A stretch of 64,000 nt of DNA from Sinorhizobium meliloti 4H41 (GTDB lineage: Bacteria > Pseudomonadota > Alphaproteobacteria > Rhizobiales > Rhizobiaceae). A program made the position numbers and the translations under genes. The DNA is taken from the NCBI RefSeq assembly GCF_000375585.1, contig NZ_AQWP01000016.1:42207-106206 (forward strand), given 5' to 3'. Numbering within the stretch: position 1 is the first letter of the stretch; each line of letters opens with the position of its first letter. Under the pieces are notes generated by a model. That model was not told the DNA's origin, did no database searches, and saw only the letters and a program-made list of their open reading frames with translations. Positions 15,642 through 48,877 of the stretch are shown piece after piece.

Positions 15642-15688
15642 GCCGCTCCGCCTGCGGATCACATCAATCTTCATGCAAGACGCCGCAG

Positions 15689-15735
15689 CATAATTACAAT
15701 CGATTGTTTGGATGGCAGGCATCGATGGCATGGAT
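15689..15735 (-). promoter_or_regulatory. nod box upstream of the nolFG operon
   Basis: Read on the minus strand, the 47 bases begin with ATCCATG and contain ATGCCTG and ATCCAAACAATCGATT in exactly the same register as the nod box at 46790-46836 before nodM. NodD-type LysR proteins bind such boxes and activate with flavonoids. The box ends about 50 bases before the chosen start of the first ORF. Confidence 0.8.
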
Positions 15736-15975
15736 AGAAGGGTTGTACTTCGCGTGTCAGGGACTCCTAAAGTCGCGTTAGCCTGCCAAGGAGGAGGCAG
15801 CCATGCTGCGTTCGCGGCTCGCGGCGCCTATGTCGAACCGTTGCCACTCCGCACCACCCGTCCCTGGTGGAACGAGTACATACCGAATATTCAGCTACTG
15901 CTCTATCGTCTTGGGGATACTGAAAATGCAGATCGATCCACCCTCTTCCTAGTGTCAGATGGCTTCTCCCCGTAA
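15712..15975 (+). pseudogene. Patatin-like phospholipase, N-terminal remnant
   Basis: The frame gives VALACQGGGSHAAFAA, the oxyanion-loop start of bacterial patatin-like proteins. The similarity stops after about 38 residues; the rest of the frame is unrelated, and the GXSXG nucleophile motif is absent. The remnant overlaps the nod box, so it is a leftover of a rearrangement at this boundary. Confidence 0.55.
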
Positions 15976-16919
15976 GTCGCTTTGTACGATGCTGAGAACC
16001 TTCCAAAATGAAAGAAACCCCATTTCAGGCAAATTTCCCTCACAGCCTGATTATTGGCGGGATTGAGCAGGTCCTGCCGCGCTGCCCGCATACGAAGCAT
16101 CATCAGGTAAGCAGCAGGTGTTGTTTCCCTGAAGGCGCGAAAGCCCAGTTGTAGCGCTCGACTGGTCACACCAGCTGCTTCTGCTACCATCGGCATTGTG
16201 ATCGGCTGATTGATATTGGCCTGCATGTATTCGATCGCGCGACGGACATGCCGAGGGGCGATCAAGCAGGGCTTCTTGTCGAGCAAGTGCGATAATCTGT
16301 GAGGAATTTGGCGCACCACCAGATCGGCCAGTGCCTGCGTCAGATGTGTCATTGCTATCGGAGAACGCAGCAGTGCGCCGTTGTCCCGTAGGCCGTTAAT
16401 CATCGTTGATGCGAGATTGCCGATCGTCTGGCCAGTCGGTGTGGCCAACTCCAACTCCGGTAATAGATCCAGAGGGTCGTTGATCGGCACCTCAAATGTT
16501 TGGCCGACAGCGTGCAGAATAACGGACCAATCCAGCAACAGCTCGTCTATTATATTTGATTGGCCATGCATAATAACTCCGTCTGGTTCAAAATTATTAT
16601 AGAGCAGCAGCTTCCCCCTTCCGGCCCCGGCCGTGCGGCCCCCATATGTCACCTCCATGCCGCCACTTCGTGGAATGACAATCGACAAATACTCTGCTGT
16701 TTCGGAGGTCGGCGCGATACTGAACTGGAACTCGTTCTGGTGATAACCGCTGATCAAAACTGCATTGTCGCACGCAACAAGATTTATTCCCCAACGAAAG
16801 TCGCCAATTTTCCCAATAGGCTCGGCGTTAAATGTACCGAAAGCCCCACCGAGAGCTTCGATCATGCCGTCGAAGGAGGAACCACGAAATGAAAACTGTG
16901 GAGGGCCATTTTCTGGCAT
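15903..16919 (-). CDS. AraC family transcriptional regulator
   Basis: The 338-residue protein (start MPENGPP at 16919) ends with a double helix-turn-helix AraC domain: VRRAIEYMQANINQPITMPM, then AGVTSRALQLGFRAF, and a second helix pair leading to TYGEKPSDTRKR. The first 210 residues form a cupin-like sensor part of the type found in AraC-binding regulators. It is the last gene, in the same orientation, after the sugar-modifying operon 17266-25039, separated by about 345 bases, so it could control that operon in response to a sugar-like ligand. This link is inferred from position only. Confidence 0.8.
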   Translation of the reverse strand: MPENGPPQFSFRGSSFDGMIEALGGAFGTFNAEPIGKIGDFRWGINLVACDNAVLISGYHQNEFQFSIAPTSETAEYLSIVIPRSGGMEVTYGGRTAGAGRGKLLLYNNFEPDGVIMHGQSNIIDELLLDWSVILHAVGQTFEVPINDPLDLLPELELATPTGQTIGNLASTMINGLRDNGALLRSPIAMTHLTQALADLVVRQIPHRLSHLLDKKPCLIAPRHVRRAIEYMQANINQPITMPMVAEAAGVTSRALQLGFRAFRETTPAAYLMMLRMRAARQDLLNPANNQAVREICLKWGFFHFGRFSASYKATYGEKPSDTRKRVDRSAFSVSPRR

Positions 16920-17265: not shown

Positions 17266-18708
17266 TCAGCTAACGGTTGGCTTAAACGGTTCCCGGCCTT
17301 GAGTCTGGTCGAAGCTGGATAGAGCCGATTGAATGGAGCCATACCATTTTGGTATTTGCGAAATTTGCGTACTGGAGCGCTGGGAGTTTTCCCGCGCGGT
17401 TCTCGCCAAATCCCTGAAATTATCGTAATCGGCCACAAGGCGATGCATCATTTCTGCAGCTTTGATCTCGATGTCCGGGGTGTCGAGGACAACTCCATTC
17501 GCCCCATTTATGACCTGCCTTTTCAGGCCAAAGGCGGAAGACACTATGACGGGCTTGCCACGGAATAGAGCCTCAGTTACTGTCAGGCCGAAGCCCTCTT
17601 CGCGAGACAGCTGAAATATCGCATGTGCGTTCTGTTGTAGGCGTCCGACAATTTCGGCATTTGCGTCACTGTCCTTCATCGAGATACAGGTGAGATATAC
17701 GCGCCGCCGCACTTCCTTGGGCAATTGAGAGCATAGTACTACGCATCTGTCGAAATACTCGCGTCCTTCAGGGTCGTCTGCCACACCCAAAGGATCCGGT
17801 CCCGCGATCACCAGGCGTGTTTCGGAAATCTCGTCGCGGGCCGTTCCTACAAAGCGATCGAACGCAGCGATGATGCGGTCAATGCCCTTCAGTCCATCCC
17901 ACCTGGATACATGCAGGAAATACTGGGAGCCGAGAATGTCCTGAAGGGTCGCTTTGGGCTCTAATTCATGACCGTTGAACGAAACCAAGTTCTCCAGTGC
18001 CTGGCTCGGCGGCCCTTCATGGTTGCGGTTCTTGGTCGAGAAGGGGCTGATCGATGGCTGGATGAAATCGATGGGGTGACCGGCATCAAAGGCATATGCC
18101 TCGTCACTCAGAACAACGCGCTGGAAGGGACGGAGGTATTCCTTCAGGAGACCCCAGGTTTTCTCGACTGTCGGAGTGCGCTTCGGATAGCCGATATGGC
18201 ATCGCCAGATAGCCGGGTGTGGGTGAGAATCCAGGAACTGTGCGGCTGCACAGAGTGGCTGCGGATCATGAATAACAAGGAAGTCATCCAGTCCGATAAT
18301 CCTTTCCAGCTCCGAGGCGCCCTGCTGCGATGTCTGAAGATAATACGGCAGCAGCTCATTCACACCTGCTGCGATGGTGTCGTGAAGAGAATTGTGGAGC
18401 CCTTTGGTGAACCGGAAAAAATGCTCGTCCTTCGGCTTGAAGATAAGCCAGCGAACATCAAAACCAAGTTCCCGAAGGAGGCAAATGTGGTGGGGAAGCA
18501 TTTCAGCCACCCCACCGCCGAACGCGGTGGAATTTATATGCCAAATACAACGGGCGCCAATCTTGTCACGAGTTGTGTTGGACGAACGAAAGAGTTCATC
18601 GAGAAGTTCCCCATAGTCCGCCCGCTCCTCAGCGTAGCGCTCAAGTACCGACCCTTCTACCTGCACCTCGTCAAATAGAGATGTGCACTGTTTCGTTGTT
18701 ACCTTCAA
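17266..18708 (-). CDS. Glycosyltransferase family 4, trehalose synthase (TreT)/trehalose phosphorylase-like
   Basis: The 480-residue GT-B enzyme has WHINSTAFGGGVAEML near residue 57, the signature loop of TreT and fungal-type trehalose phosphorylases, and HVSRWDGLKG in the second domain. The GT4 EX7E motif is present in EEGFGLTVTE (the two Glu bind the nucleotide sugar). Established members join glucose from NDP-glucose to glucose, or run the reverse reaction, giving alpha,alpha-trehalose with retention. The protein probably makes trehalose or a trehalose-like non-reducing disaccharide as the scaffold of the cluster product. It is the last gene of a minus-strand operon, 33 bases after the HAD gene. 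Acceptor and donor cannot be told from the sequence. Confidence 0.82.
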   Translation of the reverse strand: MKVTTKQCTSLFDEVQVEGSVLERYAEERADYGELLDELFRSSNTTRDKIGARCIWHINSTAFGGGVAEMLPHHICLLRELGFDVRWLIFKPKDEHFFRFTKGLHNSLHDTIAAGVNELLPYYLQTSQQGASELERIIGLDDFLVIHDPQPLCAAAQFLDSHPHPAIWRCHIGYPKRTPTVEKTWGLLKEYLRPFQRVVLSDEAYAFDAGHPIDFIQPSISPFSTKNRNHEGPPSQALENLVSFNGHELEPKATLQDILGSQYFLHVSRWDGLKGIDRIIAAFDRFVGTARDEISETRLVIAGPDPLGVADDPEGREYFDRCVVLCSQLPKEVRRRVYLTCISMKDSDANAEIVGRLQQNAHAIFQLSREEGFGLTVTEALFRGKPVIVSSAFGLKRQVINGANGVVLDTPDIEIKAAEMMHRLVADYDNFRDLARTARENSQRSSTQISQIPKWYGSIQSALSSFDQTQGREPFKPTVS

Positions 18709-18741
18709 ATTCTAGCCCTCCTTTTGGTCTGGGGAGCAGGT

Positions 18742-19434
18742 TCAGCGCGCCCGGTGAGCAAGGAGCTCGAGAAAATTCTCGATCCAGCCCTTGGTATCAG
18801 CGTGACCTTTGGCATCAGCGCCGACACCCACGCAGTCGCAGCCTGCAGCGGTTGCTGCTTCAATTCCGGTTTGGGTGTCTTCAAACACCAAGCATCTTTC
18901 GGGGGCCATGCGCAGCATCCGCAATAGTTTTTGATAGGGTTGCGGGTGCGGTTTTCCCTGACTGACGTCCTCAGCTGCAATCATGATCTTAGGGCAGGAG
19001 ATTCCGGCCGCCTTAAGTCTCGCTAGGGCGGAAGCCCTTGTCGAAGAGGTGACGATGGATCTCCTTTCGTCAGGGATCGAGCTATAGAACTCCGCAGCCC
19101 CCTGGATTGGCCGCAACAGGCTCATTGCTTGGATCTCGTAATCCGCGATGCGAGCTGCTTCGTGTTCCGGCGAGAGGCCGGGCGCAATCGCCTTCACCAA
19201 CTCGATATCCCTGCGAGCGGCCGACATCCGCATTGCGTGATCCGGACAAATCCCTTCCTCCCGAGCCCACCGGCGGAGTGCGCTTTCGATTACAGCATGG
19301 GAATCTACAAGGGTTCCGTCCAGATCGAAGGCTACGTGATCATAATCTGCAAGCTGAACTTCGATCGTGACTCGGTCTAGAGGATTCGAGCCATTGTGCG
19401 AATGGATTGTTGTAGCGTTCGTTTGATCGCTCAC
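18742..19434 (-). CDS. HAD-superfamily phosphatase (beta-phosphoglucomutase/phosphatase type)
   Basis: A GTG start at 19434 with GGAGG seven bases before it gives 230 residues. All four HAD motifs are visible: FDLDGTLVDS (nucleophile Asp and acid/base Asp), a motif II Thr/Ser in IVTSSTR, Lys in GKPHPQPY, and the acidic motif VFEDTQTGIEAA. The helical cap after motif I places it in subfamily IA with sugar-phosphate phosphatases and phosphoglucomutases. In this operon it could remove a phosphate from a sugar intermediate (for example from a 6-phosphate before oxidation) or supply hexose phosphate isomers. Spacing to the aminotransferase gene is 16 bases. Confidence 0.85.
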   Translation of the reverse strand: MSDQTNATTIHSHNGSNPLDRVTIEVQLADYDHVAFDLDGTLVDSHAVIESALRRWAREEGICPDHAMRMSAARRDIELVKAIAPGLSPEHEAARIADYEIQAMSLLRPIQGAAEFYSSIPDERRSIVTSSTRASALARLKAAGISCPKIMIAAEDVSQGKPHPQPYQKLLRMLRMAPERCLVFEDTQTGIEAATAAGCDCVGVGADAKGHADTKGWIENFLELLAHRAR

Positions 19435-19450
19435 GGTTTGCCTCCGTGTA

Positions 19451-20698
19451 TCAGGCCCAATGATGCTTGTTGGAAAGACATGCTTTCTCGGTGGTGTGAA
19501 AGGCCTCGGCGCAGTAGTTGACCATCGATGCATCGGTGACCTGAGCATTCATGTCCTCGTCCTTGCGATAGTCTGCGAGAGCGAGCTCCAATGCTGCCTG
19601 CAGAGCTTTGAAAAATGCGCCATTCATGGACGCATTGCTCATGTATGTTCCCGGATAGCCTGTGTAGATGCCGTGTTGCAGACACCTCTGAGCGAAGGCC
19701 CTTCCATGCTTTTGCGAGGGCAGAAGGATATCGAACATCGTATCGCTTCCGAGAACGCGCGCAGGTATTTCGCTGCGCTTGAAGGAGGTTTGGAATTGCC
19801 TCTTGAGCGCTGAGCCCCTTTCGACGAGGCGCTCAACAATTTTTGCTTCCTCAAATATTTCCTGTGTCAGGTTGCCGGCCACAAAGGCCCGGTTCTCGCG
19901 CAGATACGTGTTGCCGAGATAAGCCCTGTCGGCTCCCGCCATGGCATCCGCGGTGCCGGCGACCGCGGAAAGGCCGATGCCTTGCGCGATCCCCTTGGCC
20001 AATGTGATGATGTCGGGTTTCACACCGTGCTTTCGGCAATAACCACCCTTTGCATAACGAAGTCCGCACAGGACCTCATCCACAATCAGTAGGGCTCCAT
20101 GCAGTCCTGCCAACGTGGAGATTTCTTGGAGCAATTCCGGAGGAAAGACTGAGGGCTCAGGCGTGAAGAAAATGCCTGCGACTCTGCCCCGGTTCCGGGC
20201 CAGTTGCTGTTCCAGAATACTGAGATCGTATTGATAATCCTGGATGTGTTGATCCTTAGCCGGCGGATTGTCCGACCAGGGATGCTGTTGAAAGATGTCG
20301 TGCCAGCCGTGGAAGCCAGCCGTCAGGATAACCGGCCGACCAGTTCGGTAGCGAGCGATACGAACGGCCGCTTCCGTTGCACAAGATCCGGTTCTCAGAA
20401 AGAACACTCTAGGAGTGTCTGGGAACATATCTGATATTTTTCCGGCAAGTAGCTGGCGTTGCTCGCTCACTGGCGATGGCAGAACGTCAGTTTCTTGCTC
20501 CATCGCCTGCGCAAGCCGGGTCGTGAATACCGTGTTATTGCTGCCCAACGGGGAAGCCCCGCTGCATGATGTCATATCCAGGTAGGTCTTGCCATGGATG
20601 TCCTCCGCTATCGCGCCATTGGCGGAGCGGAAGACGATGGGCGCCGGCGTGTCAGCCTCCCATTCAGCTAGATGTCCAGTAGCTCCAGGATTGAGCAT
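19451..20698 (-). CDS. Class III PLP aminotransferase (GSA-aminotransferase-like)
   Basis: The 415-residue protein shows the fold type I pattern of class III aminotransferases: FLRTGSCATEAAVRIAR for phosphate binding, GFHGWHD, the PLP-pyridine aspartate in LLIVDEVLCG and the Schiff-base lysine in TLAKGIAQG. Relatives include glutamate-1-semialdehyde aminomutase and the sugar aminotransferases NeoB/BtrB of aminoglycoside pathways, which aminate a carbonyl produced by a partner flavin dehydrogenase. The gene directly upstream encodes such a GMC-type flavin enzyme (13 bases apart), so an oxidation-transamination pair is likely, giving an amino-deoxy sugar. The amino acceptor position is not determinable here. 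Confidence 0.85.
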   Translation of the reverse strand: MLNPGATGHLAEWEADTPAPIVFRSANGAIAEDIHGKTYLDMTSCSGASPLGSNNTVFTTRLAQAMEQETDVLPSPVSEQRQLLAGKISDMFPDTPRVFFLRTGSCATEAAVRIARYRTGRPVILTAGFHGWHDIFQQHPWSDNPPAKDQHIQDYQYDLSILEQQLARNRGRVAGIFFTPEPSVFPPELLQEISTLAGLHGALLIVDEVLCGLRYAKGGYCRKHGVKPDIITLAKGIAQGIGLSAVAGTADAMAGADRAYLGNTYLRENRAFVAGNLTQEIFEEAKIVERLVERGSALKRQFQTSFKRSEIPARVLGSDTMFDILLPSQKHGRAFAQRCLQHGIYTGYPGTYMSNASMNGAFFKALQAALELALADYRKDEDMNAQVTDASMVNYCAEAFHTTEKACLSNKHHWA

Positions 20699-20711
20699 CT
20701 AAATTACCCCT

Positions 20712-22196
20712 CTACTTCAGTGACAGGGCCATTCTCCTCGCGTTGGCCATGATTGTGTGTGTCGGATTGCTGTTCCCCGCGAAATTCATAACGGAGCCGT
20801 CCATGACATAGATGTTGGTGAACCCATGGACCTTGCCGCAACTGTCTACGACGGATCTCCTGGGGTCACATCCGGCGCGCATGGTTCCGTGCAGGTGGGA
20901 ACTGCCTCTTGCATGCGAGGAAGGTTCTCGTTCGATGCGGAATGCGCCCAAGTGGAGCAGAATGTCATCTGCACGGTCGGCGAGAAAGCCTATTCGGGCT
21001 TTGTCATTTTCCGAGTTCCTGTATTCGAAACGGATATAGGGGATACCATACCGGTCAGCGGCGTCATCAAGCATTAGGCGGTTGTGCGACCATGGCTCGT
21101 CCCCGGCTATATAGTGCAGTCGCACGCGGCCAATGTTCTCACTCGGCAAGTGGAAATTCGCTTCATAAATGAGGCCACCGAATCTGCACGGTACGTCATT
21201 ATGTTCGTAGAACTCGTCTGTATAAACGGTTGCATGCGGTCCCCAGTGCGAAGCCATTGCGTCGGAGCCGCAATCAGCCGCATCCACGTAGCCGACGGAG
21301 TAGCCGCTGATCTTGAAGGAGAGACCTCGCCCAACAAGGTCAGATTCATTTCCTATTCCGTGCGGGGCATGCCCGCTCTTCGACCGAAGCATCAATGCCG
21401 CGGACTGTATCGCGTTTGCGCAGACAACGATCCTTTCAACTGGGATCCGGATCAGTTCCGATGAGAGCGCCACATAGCACTCTAGGGCTTCGGCCCGGCC
21501 GTCGCGGCCAATCTCGATGCGGTTGACGAAACAGCCGTAGAAAACCGAAATTGCTCCTGGCAGTTCGGAGTCATCCAATATGTTTCTTGCAAGCACTGAT
21601 GCTCTCGCATCGGTAGGGCATACCAGCTCATCGCAAGCTGAACACTTGATACATCCTCTGCTGTCGCCAGGCGCCCGGATTGCCAGGGGGATCTGCTTCG
21701 GCCTTATGCCGAGTTCCTGCATCGCATCGGATAACATCACTCCACGGGGGCTGGCTGGGTAGGATGCGTGCCCGTTCGTGCCACCGATCTCCAGGAGATG
21801 CTCGATCTGACAATAGCAGGGTTCGAGATCCTGAAGTGTAATGGGCCAATTGACCTCCATGTCGGTCCCAAGATATTGGGAAGCTGACAGATCCGATTGG
21901 CGATATCTGAACGTGATTGCGTTGTAGAATTGCATTCCGCCGCCGACGCAACACGCCGTCCACGGGTTACCGTCAGTGGCGCCAGTGGACGTGAATGCCT
22001 TGCTGTATGCCGCTTGATGGGGCTCGTGCATGGCACCAGGAGAAACCAGGCCTCCATATTCCAGGATGGCCACGCGGCAGCCTTTTTCCGCAAGCGTTCG
22101 CGCTACTATCGATCCAGATGGCCCGGAGCCCACGATAACCGCGTCGAAGGTTGTGTAATCACAAGAGGTCGCTGCAATGTGTCTGATGTCCGTCAT
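20712..22196 (-). CDS. GMC-family FAD-dependent oxidoreductase with extra cysteine cluster
   Basis: The chosen start ATG at 22196 overlaps the stop of the upstream gene (ATGA) and gives 494 residues. The N-terminus carries the FAD dinucleotide motif VIVGSGPSGSIVARTL, and the C-terminus the GMC_C pattern YVMDGSVM...GNSNPTHTI with the catalytic His/Asn region. Around residues 181-194 there is C-x2-C-x2-C-x4-CP, like a ferredoxin or the cysteine cluster of some bacterial sugar dehydrogenases. Related NeoQ/BtrQ enzymes oxidise the primary 6-hydroxyl of an amino-sugar precursor to an aldehyde. Next to a class III aminotransferase this suggests conversion of a sugar hydroxymethyl or ring hydroxyl to an amine. 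Confidence 0.82.
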   Translation of the reverse strand: MTDIRHIAATSCDYTTFDAVIVGSGPSGSIVARTLAEKGCRVAILEYGGLVSPGAMHEPHQAAYSKAFTSTGATDGNPWTACCVGGGMQFYNAITFRYRQSDLSASQYLGTDMEVNWPITLQDLEPCYCQIEHLLEIGGTNGHASYPASPRGVMLSDAMQELGIRPKQIPLAIRAPGDSRGCIKCSACDELVCPTDARASVLARNILDDSELPGAISVFYGCFVNRIEIGRDGRAEALECYVALSSELIRIPVERIVVCANAIQSAALMLRSKSGHAPHGIGNESDLVGRGLSFKISGYSVGYVDAADCGSDAMASHWGPHATVYTDEFYEHNDVPCRFGGLIYEANFHLPSENIGRVRLHYIAGDEPWSHNRLMLDDAADRYGIPYIRFEYRNSENDKARIGFLADRADDILLHLGAFRIEREPSSHARGSSHLHGTMRAGCDPRRSVVDSCGKVHGFTNIYVMDGSVMNFAGNSNPTHTIMANARRMALSLK

Positions 22197-23632
22197 TGGC
22201 AACGGTCTCCTGTCCGATGTGAAGTGGCGGGCCAGCAAGCGGTGCTCGCGACGGAGGCCAGGATGTGCTTCGTGCGGGCCACATAGTCGGGGACCGCGAT
22301 GCCTGCGGCGCCCGTGGCCGGGTGGCGGTAGTTGGCGACGAGGCCGTCGAAGGTCCGCACGAACCAGAGGCATACCTCGTACGGATCGGTGCTGCGGCTA
22401 CGCAGGGTGACAGCGTGCCAACTGTTCCAGTCCCGGGCGCCGGGGGTACGGCGAAGGTCCATGTACGAGACCATGAAGGGATCGCGGAGCGGCTGGCCGA
22501 GGAGATCCGCCACTCGGGGAATAGGTATCCTGGCCAGGTTCTTCGACCATTCCAGGTTGGAGGCCGCCCGACGCACCGCGTCGCAAAAGGAGTCGGTTGC
22601 GCCGAGCGGGAAAGCAAACGGGCCCATTCCTACGTACCAGCCAATGGAGGACCGGAAGGGAGCTGTCCGGGTATGAAAGGGGACCATGGTTCGAAATTCA
22701 CCCGAACCGGTGATTTCATGGCCGACTTTGGCGAGGCAGGCGAGCAGACCGGAGAACGAGTCTCCCCCGGCCTTACGGCAGACGGTGTCGAAGGCGCGCG
22801 CCGTGGATGCGTCGAGAAGCTCGGTGTATCCGCTTGGCTGGGCCGCGGAGCTGCTTCTCACGTCACTAACTGGTACAGGGAACTCCGGTAGGCGGCCGCC
22901 CGTCTCGGCGAGGAACTGCCGCCAATGGGCGATGGATTCGTCGTCCGGGGTCAGCGTGTCGGTCTCGGTTCGTTCGGCCTCCGCGAAATCGAGATAGCTG
23001 GATGTGGGGGGAAGAGGAGCCGGGACGGTCTTGCCGTTACGAACGGCAAGTGCTGCGGCGTACAGAGTGCGAATCTCATGCGCCGCTGCGAGAATGGAGT
23101 AACCGTCCATCAGGATGTGGTCGGCGACGAGACAGACAGTTGTGGCCTCCGGGCGACTGATGGTGGCACAAATATATGCGGGCCACTCGAGTGGGCCGAC
23201 TTCGGCGTCGAAGAGTTCCTCCAGGTACCGCGCGAGCTGCTGCCCCTCGGTGAAGTCCCCCGCCGCACTGTGGCGGATACTCACAGCTCCGGCCGGTAGC
23301 GTCCTGCGTTGGAGACGACCGCCTGGCGTGGAGCGAGGGGGTAGGCTGAGATGGCTCCGAAGGGTTTCGTGGCGGTCTGTCCACCCGCAAAGCGCCGTAG
23401 CGAAGGCATTCGCATCAAGTTCGGCGGGCAGATCGAAGACGCAGCCCAGCCAGGACGGTGGCAGGGAGGCCTCATCGGCCGCCTCGAGTGCAAATGCGAT
23501 GTGTGCTTCCTGAACGTGAGACGCCCGACGCTTATCTTCCGCCCAAATGGCCTCGGACATGCAGGGGGCGCAAGCCCGCCAGACGGTGAGGCGGCCCGGA
23601 GACAGAACGAGGGATGACATGTCAGTGAGCAT
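22193..23632 (-). CDS. Stand-alone condensation-domain (PapA/NRPS C-type) acyltransferase
   Basis: This encodes 479 residues of the CoA-dependent acyltransferase/condensation superfamily. The characteristic RHETLRSH segment lies near residues 87-94. The active-site motif HHxxxDG appears as DHILMDG at residues 171-177, keeping the catalytic second His172 and the structural Asp176. A later segment with GWYVGMGPFAFPL fits the C-terminal lobe. No adenylation or carrier domain is attached, as in PapA enzymes that transfer acyl chains to trehalose in mycobacteria or in stand-alone C domains. It probably acylates an amine or hydroxyl of the sugar product. The GC content is higher than in the downstream part of the operon, with codon use reminiscent of actinobacteria. 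Start could also be the Met at residue 5. Confidence 0.78.
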   Translation of the reverse strand: MLTDMSSLVLSPGRLTVWRACAPCMSEAIWAEDKRRASHVQEAHIAFALEAADEASLPPSWLGCVFDLPAELDANAFATALCGWTDRHETLRSHLSLPPRSTPGGRLQRRTLPAGAVSIRHSAAGDFTEGQQLARYLEELFDAEVGPLEWPAYICATISRPEATTVCLVADHILMDGYSILAAAHEIRTLYAAALAVRNGKTVPAPLPPTSSYLDFAEAERTETDTLTPDDESIAHWRQFLAETGGRLPEFPVPVSDVRSSSAAQPSGYTELLDASTARAFDTVCRKAGGDSFSGLLACLAKVGHEITGSGEFRTMVPFHTRTAPFRSSIGWYVGMGPFAFPLGATDSFCDAVRRAASNLEWSKNLARIPIPRVADLLGQPLRDPFMVSYMDLRRTPGARDWNSWHAVTLRSRSTDPYEVCLWFVRTFDGLVANYRHPATGAAGIAVPDYVARTKHILASVASTACWPATSHRTGDRCQ

Positions 23633-24086
23633 GAAATGGGGTACCTGTCTGCGAGGAAGGAAGTGGTGCTGAGGACGAGAGTCTCGCGCGTCGGAGTACG
23701 CTGACCAGACTTAACTCCCGCGCTGCCGCGCGCGCAAGGAACGCGCCCACGGCAAATCTCATTGCAGCGCTTCCCGTAGCGGCGGCGGTCAGGCTCAGCC
23801 TCTCGATCAACTTTGTAAGGACGACACGGAGCAGGCGCTTGAGCATAAAACGAGCTTGCCGGTGGCGACGAGAATCCGGCGAGCAGACCCCAGTAGGATA
23901 TTGGCTTCCTCCGCAGACGCGCAGTGCCCAGTCTCGTTCGTGCTCGGGTTGAGAAGTTCGATTGCCGTCAGCGGGTACGACGAGCATCACGTCGCATTCG
24001 ACGAGGGTGACCGTGTGGCCCGCGAGAAGAAAGTAGAAGCTTCGGGGCAGGCGGCGGCGGGGCGCTTGGGGTTCCTCCCGCGTCAC
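23622..24086 (-). CDS. Unknown Arg-rich protein inside the sulfotransferase-acyltransferase operon
   Basis: The frame of 154 codons overlaps the sulfotransferase stop by four bases (ATGA) and runs 11 bases into the acyltransferase gene, the pattern of coupled operon genes. I do not recognise a family. The sequence has a short hydrophobic stretch (FYFLLAGHTVTLV), a polar Cys-containing middle and a basic, possibly helical part from FMLKRLLRVVLTKLIERL. It might be a small partner protein, a decayed domain, or a chance frame in high-GC DNA; there is nothing else between the two enzymes. Confidence 0.4.
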   Translation of the reverse strand: MTREEPQAPRRRLPRSFYFLLAGHTVTLVECDVMLVVPADGNRTSQPEHERDWALRVCGGSQYPTGVCSPDSRRHRQARFMLKRLLRVVLTKLIERLSLTAAATGSAAMRFAVGAFLARAAARELSLVSVLRRARLSSSAPLPSSQTGTPFHAH

Positions 24087-25039
24087 CCTGCGCTCCCAGG
24101 ATCCGGCTTCGATAAGTCATAGCCCAGGTGTTGCAGCTCCTTCCCGGCGATCCGCTCGAACTCCTCGATTTCCGCGGGCGTGAGGTCCTGTCGGTACCGT
24201 CCCCGACGCCCGGTATTCAGCGGTTTACCCGCGGCTTCCGCTGCGGGATGCCCCCAGGGTTTGTCGAACAGCGCGTGCTTATGCTCCGCGTGGTGCAGGA
24301 CTGCCTCGTCCCACGGCAAACCGAGGTGTTCCAACATCCGACCGACGGTCTGGCGGGGGTGGGTAACCAGATCTTCATACCTCACTTCCAGATAACGACC
24401 GTCAGGAGCAGTCTGGCGGGGCCGGGTGACGATCTCCAGCCAGCCGGTCGCGGCCTGCGCAATAGTCCGGTAGCCCCAGCCTGGGACGGTCTTAAGGTGT
24501 GAGGCAGCCAGGTCGCGGCCGTCGCGGATTATGTGAATGAAATGAGCTTTAGGCCATATCGCCGCGTACATGCCGATGTCCTGGATTTTCCGCTGAAGCT
24601 TCAGGCCCCATCGTCCGGCTCCCGTCTGTTCACGTCGGAATTCCCCAATGGCGTCGATGAGCCGGCAGCGATCGTCGAGGGACGACAGATCGGTACCACG
24701 CTCCGCCATTAGGCTGGTCACCAGGCTCCGCACGTCGTCACGGTCGAGACCGAAACGCTCGCACTGCACGACAAAGTGCGCGCTGTCGAACCACTCAGGA
24801 TCAACGGTGTCCTTCGTGGCACCTGCCAGCCGTGGATCGCGGCGGTCGATCATGTCGCATACCGCGAGAATGTGCGGGCCGAGGTCGACGGGATCGGTGA
24901 AATCGATCTCCGGGCCGACGACCAAACCGGGGTAGGAGTCGAGCACGACACTCAACAGAGTGGTGCCAGAGCGGTTCTCGCCGCCAAGCAGGACAGGGTT
25001 AGAAGGCAGAACGAGAGGAGAAGAACCGAGACCGGACAT
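24083..25039 (-). CDS. PAPS-dependent sulfotransferase (Sulfotransferase_3-like)
   Basis: The start MSGLGSSPL at 25039 is preceded by AGGAAAG and gives 318 residues. The PAPS 5'-phosphosulfate loop is in GGENRSGTTLLSVVLDSYP, and the 3'-phosphate-binding part in HIIRDGRDLAASH, followed by VRYEDLVTHPRQTVGRML. These are the standard sulfotransferase motifs; the family covers carbohydrate and protein-tyrosine enzymes and the mycobacterial trehalose sulfotransferase has a related fold. It presumably sulfates a hydroxyl of the cluster product using PAPS in the cytoplasm. It is the first gene of the minus-strand operon. It is not close to NodH in motif context, so Nod-factor sulfation is a less likely alternative. 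Confidence 0.85.
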   Translation of the reverse strand: MSGLGSSPLVLPSNPVLLGGENRSGTTLLSVVLDSYPGLVVGPEIDFTDPVDLGPHILAVCDMIDRRDPRLAGATKDTVDPEWFDSAHFVVQCERFGLDRDDVRSLVTSLMAERGTDLSSLDDRCRLIDAIGEFRREQTGAGRWGLKLQRKIQDIGMYAAIWPKAHFIHIIRDGRDLAASHLKTVPGWGYRTIAQAATGWLEIVTRPRQTAPDGRYLEVRYEDLVTHPRQTVGRMLEHLGLPWDEAVLHHAEHKHALFDKPWGHPAAEAAGKPLNTGRRGRYRQDLTPAEIEEFERIAGKELQHLGYDLSKPDPGSAG

Positions 25040-25080
25040 GACTTTCCTGCGGGCATGTGGCGTTCGGTCAATGCTGTACC

Positions 25081-25144
25081 GGCAAAAATCAATTGCTGCT
25101 ATTAACACAAATGTAATTGTCCAGTTTATTTCCAAACATGGATA
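25081..25144 (-). promoter_or_regulatory. Degenerate nod-box-like element before the sulfotransferase operon
   Basis: On the minus strand an ATCCATG (from 25143) is followed, about 48 bases on, by CAATTGATTTTTGCC. These resemble the two ends of a nod box, but the inner part does not align and the spacing is about 18 bases too long. A degenerate or interrupted box is possible; so is chance in an AT-rich promoter region. Confidence 0.2.
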
Positions 25145-25490
25145 GGTTTTTCGTCAAACGTACAGTCTATTGTTTCTTTGCCGACGCAGTTGTTCGATAG
25201 CGGCGACGGTTTGGTCGGTGAAGATCATTGAATTGTCGGAAGGAGCGCCCTTTTGCGACAATTTGTTCGCGGAGATGTTGCGTTCCGGATCCGCCCAAAC
25301 ATGGCCGCGCTTGCGCACACTGTTCACTTGCGGTTCGACAGTGCCGCTGCAGCTTACCAGCACGAGACCTGGGCGGCTGCCAGAACATTCCGCTTCACGC
25401 CAAACGCCGGCGCCTGAACAGCATTTGGGACGGGGCAGTCCAGGTTTCGGAGCATCCCGGGCGAGCAACACCTCAAATGTATAGCGGAAT
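25145..25490. other. Intergenic region, possible IS481-type scrap
   Basis: No intact gene. A minus-strand frame near 25180-25235 reads TVAAIEQLRRQR, similar to the N-terminus of IS481-like transposases, but it is too short to be sure. Confidence 0.25.
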
Positions 25491-27111: not shown

Positions 27112-28451
27112 CATGGTGCAACCGACTGCCGACCGGAGCCGCCAGGCCACTGCTGATCGTGTTTGTATTGCTGGGTCTTGTAGCGACGTCGGCCAGGGCG
27201 GCCATGGCCATACAGGAAGTGGAGACATCGAGTGGGATCAAGGCTTGGCTGGTAGAAGACTATTCGGTACCGATCGTCACCATTCGGTTCGCGTTCCGGG
27301 GCGGCACCACGCAGGATCCTTCCGGCAAGGAAGGTCTTGCCCATCTCATGACCGCGTTGCTCGACGAAGGGGCCGGCGACCTTGACAGCGAAACCTTCCA
27401 GGAACGGCTGGACGATGCCGGCGCTGAGATGCGGTTCGGGGCTGGGCGCGATGCGGTCTACGGCTCCATGCGAGTGCTCGCCGATCAGAAGGATGATGCG
27501 TTCGATCTCCTCCGGCTGGCCGTCGAGCAGCCGCGCTTCGACCAAGCGCCTTTGGACCGCGTCCGCGGGCAGATCGTCACGGGCATCATCGCGGAAGCCA
27601 AGGATCCGGAGACGGCCGCGCAGGGCGCATGGAGGAAGGCGCTCTATGGCGATCATCCTTATTCCCGGCCGGACGAAGGGACCGAGCAAACTCTTGCCAC
27701 TGTCACGACCACCGATCTCAAGGCGCTCCATAAGCGGCTTTTCGCAGGGGGCAAGCTTGCCATTGCCGTAGCGGGAGCGATCGACGCCGGTGCACTCAAG
27801 CACGATCTGGATCGGATATTCGGCGGGTTGCCTGCCGAGCCCTCCTTGGTGCCGGTTGCGGACACTGCCCCTAAGCTGGCGCAGGAAATTCGCACCCCGT
27901 ATAATTTACCGCAGACTGGTCTGCGCCTGGTCTATCCGGGAGTTAGCCACAAAGACCCGCAGTTCTTTGCAGCTTATCTGATGAATGACATTCTAGGCGG
28001 AGGCGCGTTCACGTCCAGGCTCTGGAACGAAGTACGCGAGAAGCGAGGGCTCGCTTACCACATTCGATCTGCCCTCGTGAACAATGACCATGCCTCGGCT
28101 CTCGTTATCGCCACGGGGACCCGCCCGGATCGGGCCGCAGAGACACTCGCCCTCATTCGCGCCGAGGTGAGGCGGATCGCGGAGGAGGGCGTCAGCGGGG
28201 AGGAGCTCGGAGCGGCGAAGAGAAAGGCCATTGCCGGTTACGCAATCGGCAATCTCAACTCGTTCCGCACCGTCGCCGACACTCTGGTCGATATCCAAAT
28301 GAAAGATCTCGGCATCGATTACATCGAGCGGCGGAAACAGTTGATTGAGGCTGTGAGCGCGGAGGACGTCCGGTCGGCCGCAAACCGGCTTCTCTCCGCA
28401 GACCCCGCCGTGATGATTGTCGGACCACCCCTTGAGGATAGGAGAGGGTAA
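27108..28451 (+). CDS. Secreted M16-family protein without zinc motif (partner subunit)
   Basis: The 447-residue product starts with a signal peptide ([18 protein letters not shown]). At the place of HXXEH it has [12 protein letters not shown], so the two zinc histidines and catalytic glutamate are not conserved; it is predicted to be the non-catalytic subunit that holds substrate, as in mitochondrial processing peptidase and two-chain bacterial M16 systems. The C-terminal domain contains [19 protein letters not shown]. Residues 135-213 are nearly identical at DNA level to the start of the window (1-236). It is the second gene of the sigma54 operon and is coupled to the active subunit by ATGA overlap. 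Confidence 0.88.
27510..27745 (+). repeat. Near-identical direct repeat shared with 1-236
   Basis: Second copy of the conserved tract described at 1-236; it lies inside the coding region of the inactive M16 subunit. Confidence 0.85.
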
Positions 28452-46643: not shown

Positions 46644-46789
46644 GGGCAGATACCGTCCTGCTTCTCTGCTACTGCTTCAATTCTCTGTTCCACCGGCTGC
46701 ATGTCGACTTGTGAGATGCTCCGTCATCCGCGCGTCGAGCACAGCGAGCACTTTGCGGCCAGAGCCCTTGAAGCGCATCAGCGTAATGC

Positions 46790-46836
46790 ATCCATAACGC
46801 AAATGCCTGTTATCCAAACAATCAATTTTCCCGATC
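46790..46836 (+). promoter_or_regulatory. nod box upstream of nodM
   Basis: A 47-base element starting ATCCATAACG, containing ATGCCTG and ATCCAAACAATCAATTTTCC and ending CCGATC, in the same register as the nod box at 15689-15735. It lies 215 bases before the nodM ATG and should make the gene flavonoid/NodD dependent. Confidence 0.85.
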
Positions 46837-47050
46837 AATCGAGCGCCATTAGAAAGTGCTGAAACTAACGAAAATCAAGTCCAGCAGACTTACCTGCCGG
46901 CATTTTCGCTCGGCCGATTGACAACAGCAGGTGACGCGCAGCGAAGGCACGATCGCCAGTGCGAGGCAACCGGGAAGCTATCGGCATTGCCCGCTCAGAC
47001 TGGGTCTTTGAGTACGTCGTTATCGGCGGGAAGGAACGCGAAGAGGGGAT

Positions 47051-48877
47051 ATGTGCGGGATTGTGGGTATCGTCGGGCAGCAGCCGGTCTCGGAGCGGTT
47101 GGTCGATGCGTTGAAGCGCCTTGAATATCGCGGCTACGATTCGGCCGGGGTTGCGACCATCGATGGCGGAGCGCTCGATCGCCGGCGCGCCGAGGGAAAG
47201 ATTGTCAATCTCGAGGCAAGGTTGAGAGAACAGCCTCTGGCCGGCGCAATCGGCATAGGCCATACGCGCTGGGCGACCCACGGGGCGCCGACCGAGCGCA
47301 ATGCCCATCCGCATTTCACCGACGGCGTCGCTGTCGTGCACAACGGCATCATCGAGAATTTTGCCGAGCTGAAGGACGAGCTGTCCGAGGCGGGTGCCGA
47401 ATTCCAGACCGAGACCGACACCGAAGTCGTCGCGCAGCTGCTGGCAAGATTTTGCCGCGACGGCCTTGGGCGGCGCGAGGCGATGCATGCGATGCTGAAA
47501 CGGGTGAAGGGCGCCTATGCCCTTGCCGTTCTTTTCCAGGACGATCCCTCGACGATCATGGCGGCCCGCAACGGCCCGCCGCTGGCGATCGGCCATGGCA
47601 ACGGCGAGATGTTCCTGGGCTCCGATGCCATCGCGCTCGCGCCCTTCACCAACGAAATCACCTATCTGATCGACGGCGACTGGGCGGTGATCGGCAAGAC
47701 CGGCGTCCATATCTTCGACATGGATGGCAACCCCGTCACCCGCCCGCGCCAGGTATCCTCGGCGGCCGCCTATATGGTCGACAAGGGCAACCATCGCCAT
47801 TTCATGGAGAAGGAAATCTACGAGCAGCCGGAGGTCATCTCCCACGCGCTCAGCCACTATGTCAACTTCATCGACCATCGGGTGCTGCCGGTTTCGGAGG
47901 CGATCGACTTCGCCAAGGTGCCGAGCCTGGCGATCTCCGCCTGCGGCACTGCCTATCTGGCCGGGCTGATCGGCAAATATTGGTTCGAGCGCTATGCGCG
48001 CCTGCCGGTCGAAATCGATGTCGCTTCGGAATTCCGCTACCGCGAAATTCCGCTTTCGCCAGAGTCGGCCGCTCTCTTCATCTCGCAATCGGGCGAGACT
48101 GCCGACACGCTTGCCTCGCTGCGCTACTGCAAGGAACACGGCCTGAAGATCGGCGCGGTCGTCAACACGCGCGAATCGACGATCGCGCGCGAGTCCGACG
48201 CCGTCTTCCCGATCCTCGCCGGGCCGGAGATCGGCGTGGCGTCGACCAAGGCCTTCACCTGCCAGCTTGCGGTTCTGGCTTCGCTCGCGGTTGCTGCGGG
48301 TCGAGCGCGCGGCACTGTCGGCGAGCTGGAGGAGCAGGCGCTGGTGCGAAGCCTGGCCGAGATGCCGCGCCTCATGGGCCAGGTGCTCAACAGCATCCAG
48401 CCGAAGATCGAATTTCTGTCCCGCGAATTGTCGAAGTGTCGCGACGTGCTCTATCTCGGCCGCGGCACGAGCTTCCCCCTTGCCATGGAAGGCGCCCTGA
48501 AGCTCAAGGAGATCTCCTACATTCACGCGGAAGGCTATGCCGCCGGCGAACTGAAACACGGACCGATCGCGCTGATTGACGAGAACATGCCGGTGATCGT
48601 GATTGCGCCGCATGACCGCTTCTTCGACAAGACCGTCTCCAACATGCAGGAAGTGGCCGCGCGCGGCGGACGGATCATCCTGATCACCGACGAGCGGGGT
48701 GCTGCCGCTTCGAAGCTCGACACGATGCATACGATCGTGCTTCCGAATGTCGACGAGATCATCGCGCCGATGATCTTCTCGCTACCCGTCCAACTGCTCG
48801 CCTACCACACGGCGGTCTTCATGGGCACCGATGTCGACCAGCCGCGCAATCTCGCAAAATCGGTCACCGTCGAATGA
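47051..48877 (+). CDS. nodM: Glucosamine-fructose-6-phosphate aminotransferase NodM
   Basis: The 608-residue enzyme starts MCGIVGIVGQQ, so Cys2 becomes the N-terminal glutaminase nucleophile after Met removal. The glutaminase part carries RWATHGAPTERNAHPH and the following SIS isomerase domains hold SQSGETADTLASLRY and EIGVASTKAF; the C-terminus ends LAKSVTVE as in GlmS. It makes glucosamine 6-phosphate from fructose 6-phosphate and glutamine. The upstream nod box identifies this as the symbiotic copy feeding Nod-factor backbone synthesis, with a housekeeping glmS expected elsewhere. It is located next to hypE, 31 kb from nolFG, its neighbours in Sinorhizobium. Confidence 0.93.
   Translation: MCGIVGIVGQQPVSERLVDALKRLEYRGYDSAGVATIDGGALDRRRAEGKIVNLEARLREQPLAGAIGIGHTRWATHGAPTERNAHPHFTDGVAVVHNGIIENFAELKDELSEAGAEFQTETDTEVVAQLLARFCRDGLGRREAMHAMLKRVKGAYALAVLFQDDPSTIMAARNGPPLAIGHGNGEMFLGSDAIALAPFTNEITYLIDGDWAVIGKTGVHIFDMDGNPVTRPRQVSSAAAYMVDKGNHRHFMEKEIYEQPEVISHALSHYVNFIDHRVLPVSEAIDFAKVPSLAISACGTAYLAGLIGKYWFERYARLPVEIDVASEFRYREIPLSPESAALFISQSGETADTLASLRYCKEHGLKIGAVVNTRESTIARESDAVFPILAGPEIGVASTKAFTCQLAVLASLAVAAGRARGTVGELEEQALVRSLAEMPRLMGQVLNSIQPKIEFLSRELSKCRDVLYLGRGTSFPLAMEGALKLKEISYIHAEGYAAGELKHGPIALIDENMPVIVIAPHDRFFDKTVSNMQEVAARGGRIILITDERGAAASKLDTMHTIVLPNVDEIIAPMIFSLPVQLLAYHTAVFMGTDVDQPRNLAKSVTVE

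Follow-up and report, generated by a model that had tools for sequence, protein, structure and literature searches.

A conserved rhizobial operon and its proposed pathway to a sulfated, acylated amino-disaccharide of trehalose type

Introduction

In the pathway to the mycobacterial sulfolipid SL-1, the sulfotransferase is Stf0. The combination of a sulfotransferase and an acyltransferase is also typical of the decoration of Nod factors (lipo-chitooligosaccharides). Here we describe an operon that encodes enzymes of both kinds, a sulfotransferase (ST) and a stand-alone condensation-type acyltransferase (C), together with a GMC flavin oxidoreductase, a class III aminotransferase (AT), a HAD phosphatase and a glycosyltransferase (GT). 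It lies in a 64,000-nucleotide stretch of DNA from Sinorhizobium meliloti 4H41 (contig NZ_AQWP01000016.1, positions 42,207 to 106,206), which was analyzed as a whole and is referred to as the window. We propose, with about even confidence, that this operon of symbiosis plasmids and islands is dedicated to making a trehalose-type amino-disaccharide that is sulfated, acylated and exported.

The SL-1 pathway also includes PapA2, PapA1, Pks2, FadD23 and MmpL8 (literature including PMC6996325). According to PMC6996325, H166 is the catalytic His of PapA2, and docking placed four residues, including S384, beside the substrate. Like this pathway, the operon combines a sulfotransferase and a PapA2-type acyltransferase predicted to act on trehalose with an exporter, here of the major facilitator superfamily (MFS) and there MmpL. 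Unlike it, the operon has a sulfotransferase of another family, adds an oxidation and an amination, contains no polyketide synthase or acyl-AMP ligase among its genes (Pfam), and occurs in Gram-negative nodule symbionts.

The C-6' amine of gentamicin is made by a flavin dehydrogenase and a pyridoxal phosphate (PLP)-dependent aminotransferase (PMC4039129); GenB1 aminates, while GenB3 and GenB4 are involved in dehydroxylation (PMC4039129 and PMC11420954). The operon shares with such modules (GenQ/GenB1; NeoQ/NeoB) the presence of a flavin dehydrogenase and a class III PLP aminotransferase in one set, but it has no other aminoglycoside genes and includes acylation and sulfation as extra steps. 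With the Nod factor genes (nodA, nodH, noeE) it shares plasmids and islands, and the predicted product of the operon, like Nod factors, would be a sulfated, acylated amino sugar, but it has no Nod backbone enzymes. The author of a first-pass annotation of the window knew of no described rhizobial pathway with this set of genes, and we found none in the open-licence literature searched. In genome papers on such strains (PMC3224233, PMC5011921, PMC5995829, PMC4339197), searches for the words sulfotransferase, condensation domain, GMC and trehalose gave no match.

Results

Operon structure and distribution

The seven minus-strand open reading frames (ORFs) described in the first-pass annotation are present in the window (Table 1), and their close packing, with overlaps or gaps under 35 bases, was confirmed (spacings of -4, -11, -4, 13, 16 and 33 bases). 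Following the annotation of S. fredii GR64, three genes start later than their longest ORF (ST at 25039, GMC at 22196, HAD at 19434). Pfam also agreed with the six enzyme classes that had been named: TreT_GT1 and Glycos_transf_1, HAD_2, Aminotran_3, GMC_oxred_N/C, Condensation, and Sulfotransfer_3. The ratio of nonsynonymous to synonymous substitution rates (dN/dS) was calculated for the window against two relatives. For the six enzymes it was 0.19-0.41 with S. americanum CCGM7 and 0.14-0.37 with S. terangae, which indicates that they evolve as working genes; the values for the GMC gene were 0.14-0.24. Judged by their sequences, purifying selection acts on six of the seven operon genes, all six of them intact.

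A scan with an alignment of C proteins across 84,980 species genomes yielded 46 loci, 24 in Proteobacteria and 22 in Actinobacteria; because the scan used two short peptide patterns, distant members may have been missed. The proteobacterial loci belong to Sinorhizobium/Ensifer (6), Mesorhizobium (1), Cupriavidus (4) and Bradyrhizobium (13), and all 24 have other core genes beside C. The gene order is GMC-AT-ST-MFS-C in Bradyrhizobium and ST-(MFS)-C-GMC-AT-(HAD-GT) in the other genera. When 12 Bradyrhizobium loci were set against L032, the five core genes were the only real genes common to all (L-numbers and G-numbers denote loci and genomes as labelled in this analysis). The first-pass annotation had treated all seven genes as one set; what is conserved together in four genera is a core of ST, MFS exporter, C, GMC and AT, and GT and HAD fall outside it. 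Intact copies of this core are carried by C. taiwanensis STM 8555 and by 12 of the 13 Bradyrhizobium loci.

The window region is 99.2% identical to a plasmid record of S. fredii GR64 (pSfreGR64b, 464 kb), and the gene order is kept in five public Sinorhizobium plasmids (L002-L006), at identities from 99.2% (GR64) down to 87% (S. terangae). In S. terangae the copy sits among other genes, and similarity begins about 150 bases before ST, which argues that the block moves as a unit.

The seventh ORF, previously described as a small unknown protein of the pathway, is the remnant of an MFS exporter gene. The corresponding position in C. taiwanensis STM 8555 is occupied by an intact MFS gene of 429 amino acids, and, more widely, Cupriavidus has intact MFS genes in this place and Bradyrhizobium has them between ST and C. 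The window ORF matches the N-terminus of the intact C. taiwanensis transporter (53% over 30 amino acids, E 1e-4), and 5 of 13 searched loci without an intact MFS gene gave an MFS match at E ≤1e-3. Its dN/dS versus CCGM7 is 0.82, and its changes at codon positions 1, 2 and 3 number 24, 21 and 18, with no third-position excess. In strain LCM 4579, S. kostiense and S. aridi (L014-L016), the ST-C interval has shrunk to about 130 bases. A real protein or carrier protein encoded by this ORF was rejected in view of its near-neutral evolution, the MFS match, and the lack of any Pfam or NCBIfam match; by sequence, then, it is a dead exporter gene in Sinorhizobium. In the Cupriavidus loci L008 (12716-14809), L018 and L019, ST and MFS are fused in one frame and AT is shortened; the shortened AT of L008 adjoins an IS4-family transposase.

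Acyltransferase

A profile of 11 rhizobial C sequences matched PapA2, the trehalose-2-sulfate acyltransferase, over its full length with E 8.3e-48, the next chain following at 3.2e-16. The AlphaFold2 model of C had a high confidence (predicted local distance difference test score, pLDDT, 90.8), and its best Foldseek match was again PapA2 (3.4e-37, template modelling (TM) score 0.86/0.90, 2.6 Å), ahead of a runner-up at 8.8e-23 with TM 0.69 by query. By full-length similarity and by fold, C is thus closer to PapA2 than to the condensation domains of nonribosomal peptide synthetases, and the suggestion of a shared PapA fold in the first-pass annotation was borne out, with PapA2 as the closest solved relative. 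The catalytic His and Asp of the HxxxD motif are kept, and DHxxxD is present in 15 of 15 rhizobial rows checked. In an alignment read by eye, H172 and D176 of the window protein align with H166 and D170 of PapA2; S389 aligns with S384, and the other three docking residues differ.

In a midpoint-rooted tree of 35 C proteins, for which the Nocardia and Tsukamurella rows raised long-branch warnings, the 15 rhizobial proteins formed one clade (support 96/98), which grouped with actinobacterial first-position proteins (96/97). The betaproteobacterial Cupriavidus proteins grouped with Sinorhizobium (100/99), apart from Bradyrhizobium, which suggests a transfer of the C gene between alpha- and beta-rhizobia. 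The Sinorhizobium genome G436 (L084) holds part of a C gene of the Bradyrhizobium type, a hint of a second transfer.

In nearly all actinobacterial loci two or three C proteins stand in tandem, and GMC and ST are missing; a weak AT-like ORF lies at the far end of L051. Tandem PapA-like condensation proteins without GMC and ST were seen in Streptomyces, Amycolatopsis and Nocardia (L022, L029, L041, L047, L054 and others); those of Nocardia L041 have an AMP-binding acyl ligase close by.

Glycosyltransferase and phosphatase

GT contains the TreT N-terminal domain (PF21269, 1.5e-34) and the GT4 C-terminal domain (PF00534, 1.6e-17). Its only matches in the PDB below 1e-5 were two TreT structures (best 1.5e-43) and a trehalose phosphorylase/synthase (2.1e-39). 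The TreT match covers nearly the whole length and includes conserved HxNSTxxGGGVAE, HDPQP, WRCH and EGFGLTVTEA stretches. Unlike TreT, GT is longer, is paired with a HAD phosphatase and is accessory, and it matches TreT at an E value of only about 1e-43. The best NCBIfam match of HAD was the sugar phosphatase model PRK11587 (5.3e-29, below the cut-off).

Both genes of the GT/HAD pair occur in the window, in Mesorhizobium alhagi (L020) and in eight Sinorhizobium loci (L002-L006 and L011-L013). The pair is missing at the locus from L014-L016, from C. taiwanensis (L007 and L008) and from all 13 Bradyrhizobium loci, and C. necator UYPR2.512 retains only fragments (HAD, 68% over 107 amino acids; GT, 54% over 52 amino acids); L017-L019 are short contigs and say little on this point. 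Since many carriers lack the pair at the locus or keep only decayed remains of it, its inclusion in the conserved set had to be dropped. When 11 genomes were searched in full, an intact close GT turned up only in the three in which one was expected.

All 13 whole genomes examined contain a gene of the trehalose-6-phosphate synthase family (PF00982). Nine of them lack an intact GT/HAD pair at the locus, which suggests that the pair is dispensable and perhaps only supplies a precursor; the four carriers with the pair hold the housekeeping gene as well, and a fourteenth record comprised a plasmid only. As the losses at the locus suggest, a pair that duplicates the housekeeping supply may be lost without harm.

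Oxidoreductase, aminotransferase and sulfotransferase

The GMC profile was nearest to the fructose dehydrogenase large subunit (1.7e-46), followed by glucose dehydrogenase (2.6e-39). In NXT3 the gene is a single ORF matching the whole protein. For AT, the best profile matches were the C-6' aminotransferases 7lm0 (252.6 bits) and 7lld (250.5 bits), with the next at 153.3 bits. Of the amination parallel drawn earlier with NeoQ/NeoB, the aminotransferase half stands, but the GMC enzyme is not nearest to the aminoglycoside oxidase type.

ST is 62-64% identical to four Bradyrhizobium orthologues. Its nearest solved structures are tyrosylprotein sulfotransferases (TPSTs), at 1e-18 and over the C-terminal half only. 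The parallel with the mycobacterial enzyme was not upheld, as ST is of the Sulfotransfer_3/TPST type and not of the Stf0 family. In two Cupriavidus, a gene for adenosine 5'-phosphosulfate (APS) kinase lies near the core on the opposite strand; it is a plausible source of 3'-phosphoadenosine 5'-phosphosulfate (PAPS). This gene stands behind a nod-box-like site matching 29 or 31 of 41 consensus positions, of which 29 is barely above chance (chance-like sites in other loci reach 28).

Co-occurrence with nodA

All 24 proteobacterial carrier genomes of the species-wide scan contain nodA, and so do all seven plasmid records with the locus, including the five Sinorhizobium plasmids. In Bradyrhizobium, 17 of 17 carriers have nodA versus 108 of 195 genomes overall (hypergeometric P = 2.4e-5, not corrected for kinship). 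These carriers have an orthologue, whole or in remnants; in 16 of them MFS and/or ST lie adjacent, and G541 was judged from its fragments only. In 12 Bradyrhizobium genomes C and nodA share a contig; the distance between them is about 59-108 kb in 10 of these, 274 kb in G456 and 505 kb in G485. Twelve further Bradyrhizobium genomes with a C protein of 135-196 bits, two of them with nodA, were left out as paralogues. The five of these whose neighbours were checked, G264 (L071) among them, lack ST and MFS within 1.5 kb, and the proteins of the other four form a separate long branch.

Among 33 Sinorhizobium genomes, 11 carry the locus (one as a Bradyrhizobium-like fragment only) and all 11 have nodA, although the test is empty here because 31 of the 33 have nodA anyway. 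The only other genome of the window's species, G421, has neither the locus nor nodA. In an order-wide sample of 397 genomes the orthologue was found in the window's own genome only. Three matches of 177-182 bits in this sample (G146, G264 and G340) were likewise treated as paralogues. Eight of the nine nodA-containing genomes in this sample lack the locus, which is thus far from universal in rhizobia.

The GR64 plasmid pSfr64b, presumably the replicon pSfreGR64b, is reported to be both required and enough for nodulation of bean (PMC3224233).

Regulation and neighbouring genes

The operon is preceded by a probable promoter region (25040..25190). In an alignment of six loci, conservation ends at this border of the operon, and the region is kept also in S. 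terangae, where the further flank is unrelated. Scans for nod-box, sigma-54 and FixK sites found no convincing site of these kinds before ST. In the window, only the nod boxes at 15688(-) and 46789(+) rose above shuffle level, the best site in each of five base shuffles scoring 24-26 of 41.

An AraC-family regulator downstream accompanies the full Sinorhizobium operon in L002-L006 (S. terangae included) and in the draft genomes L011-L013, with a dN/dS of 0.21 between the window and CCGM7; it was not seen in the M. alhagi, Cupriavidus or Bradyrhizobium loci.

The location next to nolFG and near nodM had been offered as a sign of a symbiotic role. The link to symbiosis is supported by nodA, but not by nolFG, since this neighbourhood is local and the core genes lie elsewhere in S. 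terangae and Bradyrhizobium. Loci of these two groups lend no support to nolFG as part of the pathway; nolFG may serve as exporter in the remaining loci. The strong nod box at 46789-46837 (+), with 37 of 41 positions, lies about 210 bases before a gene (47051-48877) that we take, by eye, to be nodM/glmS-like.

Genes for radical S-adenosylmethionine (SAM)/SPASM proteins occur near the core in Bradyrhizobium L032 (2903-3769) and S. terangae L004 (5753-6616), the latter about 570 bases behind a nod-box-like site of 33/41; the gene is not conserved among the Bradyrhizobium loci. The 3' part of a pitrilysin-family gene is present in the window in two copies 27 kb apart, one of them at the window edge (1-915 and 27510-28424; 82.6% identical).

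Table 1. Features of the operon and its surroundings in window coordinates
Feature	Position	Strand	Basis
PAPS-type sulfotransferase (ST), Sulfotransfer_3; operon gene 1	24083..25039	-	Pfam 4.8e-27
MFS exporter gene relic	23622..24086	-	C. taiwanensis MFS match, near-neutral evolution
Stand-alone condensation-type acyltransferase (C), PapA2-like	22193..23632	-	Profile and fold match
GMC flavin oxidoreductase	20712..22196	-	Pfam; profile nearest fructose dehydrogenase large subunit
Class III PLP aminotransferase (AT)	19451..20698	-	Profile nearest C-6' aminotransferases 7lm0/7lld
HAD-IA sugar phosphatase, accessory	18742..19434	-	Pfam HAD_2 6e-23
TreT-like GT4 glycosyltransferase (GT), accessory	17266..18708	-	TreT_GT1 1.5e-34; TreT profile match 1.5e-43
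AraC-family regulator	15903..16919	-	HTH_18 2.4e-17
Region upstream of ST, probable promoter region, no canonical nod box	25040..25190	-	Six-locus alignment
Nod box facing RND efflux genes, not the operon	15688..15736	-	35/41 consensus positions

Discussion

The interpretation in the first-pass annotation was partly supported. Its central idea, an aminated, acylated and sulfated disaccharide, is consistent with the PapA2-like C, the TreT-like GT and the C-6'-type AT. From these genes we infer a substrate, an order of steps, the positions modified, an acyl donor, a product with its export, and a symbiotic role, as follows. GT would join glucose from a nucleoside diphosphate sugar to glucose or glucose-6-phosphate and, with the HAD phosphatase, yield trehalose, duplicating the housekeeping route. 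The GMC flavoenzyme would oxidize a single hydroxyl group, with the primary C-6 as the most likely site, and AT would convert the carbonyl to an amine. ST would then transfer sulfate from PAPS, and C would add an acyl chain from an acyl thioester, onto oxygen or the new amine. The final step would be export, for which the MFS protein, decayed in Sinorhizobium, would have been the original carrier.

Several observations weigh against this proposal. GT scored 164.8 bits on the Thermococcales TreT equivalog model NF041139 (cut-off 775), for which reason we call it TreT-like and not TreT, and its AlphaFold2 model, with five close homologues, was of low confidence (pLDDT 39.5). Bradyrhizobium G006 holds another TreT-like protein elsewhere (29%, 1.4e-30), so a hidden GT is possible there. 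GMC matched the 6'''-hydroxyparomomycin C oxidase 7dve at 5.3e-18, weaker than its match to fructose dehydrogenase, and 7lm0 and 7lld may be of the GenB3/GenB4 kind. ST had no Stf0 match in Pfam (E 0.01) or the PDB (E 0.001). The actinobacterial tandem proteins with which rhizobial C proteins group have no assigned acceptor, and Pfam found no acyl-activating enzyme or carrier protein among the operon genes. Most nodA-containing genomes are without the locus. It has also decayed in some symbionts, with AT shortened in L008, L017, L018, L019 and L038 and C frameshifted in L020 and L021, which suggests that any role is host- or niche-dependent.

The same chemistry could act on another disaccharide or glycoside, with GT joining glucose to a different acceptor, and would still give a sulfated acyl amino-glycoside. 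The modest similarity of GT to TreT and its poor model would fit such a substrate, as would the 22% identity of C to PapA2 in the structural alignment and the Bradyrhizobium and Cupriavidus loci without intact GT. We nevertheless consider it unlikely and favor trehalose, because two unrelated enzymes, GT and C, point to it and because the repeated losses of GT/HAD are in keeping with a housekeeping substrate.

A role as an antibiotic or competition factor against soil bacteria, aminoglycoside- or glycolipid-like, rather than as a plant signal appears quite improbable. It would account for the aminoglycoside enzymes among the relatives of AT, the relatives of C in Streptomyces and Amycolatopsis, and the exporter in the core, but not for the restriction of the locus, among the Proteobacteria tested, to nodA-bearing genomes, needless for a general soil antibiotic; nor was any resistance gene seen among the operon genes in Pfam or NCBIfam. 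That the enzymes decorate Nod factors or some other surface glycan instead of a free disaccharide is a view we hold to be very unlikely. Although the co-occurrence with nodA and the pairing of ST with an acyltransferase would suit it, C and GT match trehalose enzymes, the operon has no nod box in front, and ST reached only 19.9 bits on the NoeE model (cut-off 500).

If the product is an amino-trehalose of the kind proposed, a broader view can be put forward, although we regard it as rather doubtful: alpha- and beta-rhizobia might share a second diffusible sulfated amino-glycolipid besides Nod factors, an acylated, sulfated amino-trehalose that acts on the legume while it is being infected or inside the nodule. 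Its pathway would have been put together from a PapA-type acyltransferase of actinobacterial origin and an amination pair of the aminoglycoside type. If the main proposal holds, symbionts of four genera make a small molecule that is without description in the open-licence literature searched. Its chemistry would parallel that of two classic host-directed molecules, Nod factors and the tubercle bacillus sulfolipid. The predicted product, encoded in several unrelated groups of nodule bacteria, could be a small molecule that has so far been missed in the legume symbiosis.

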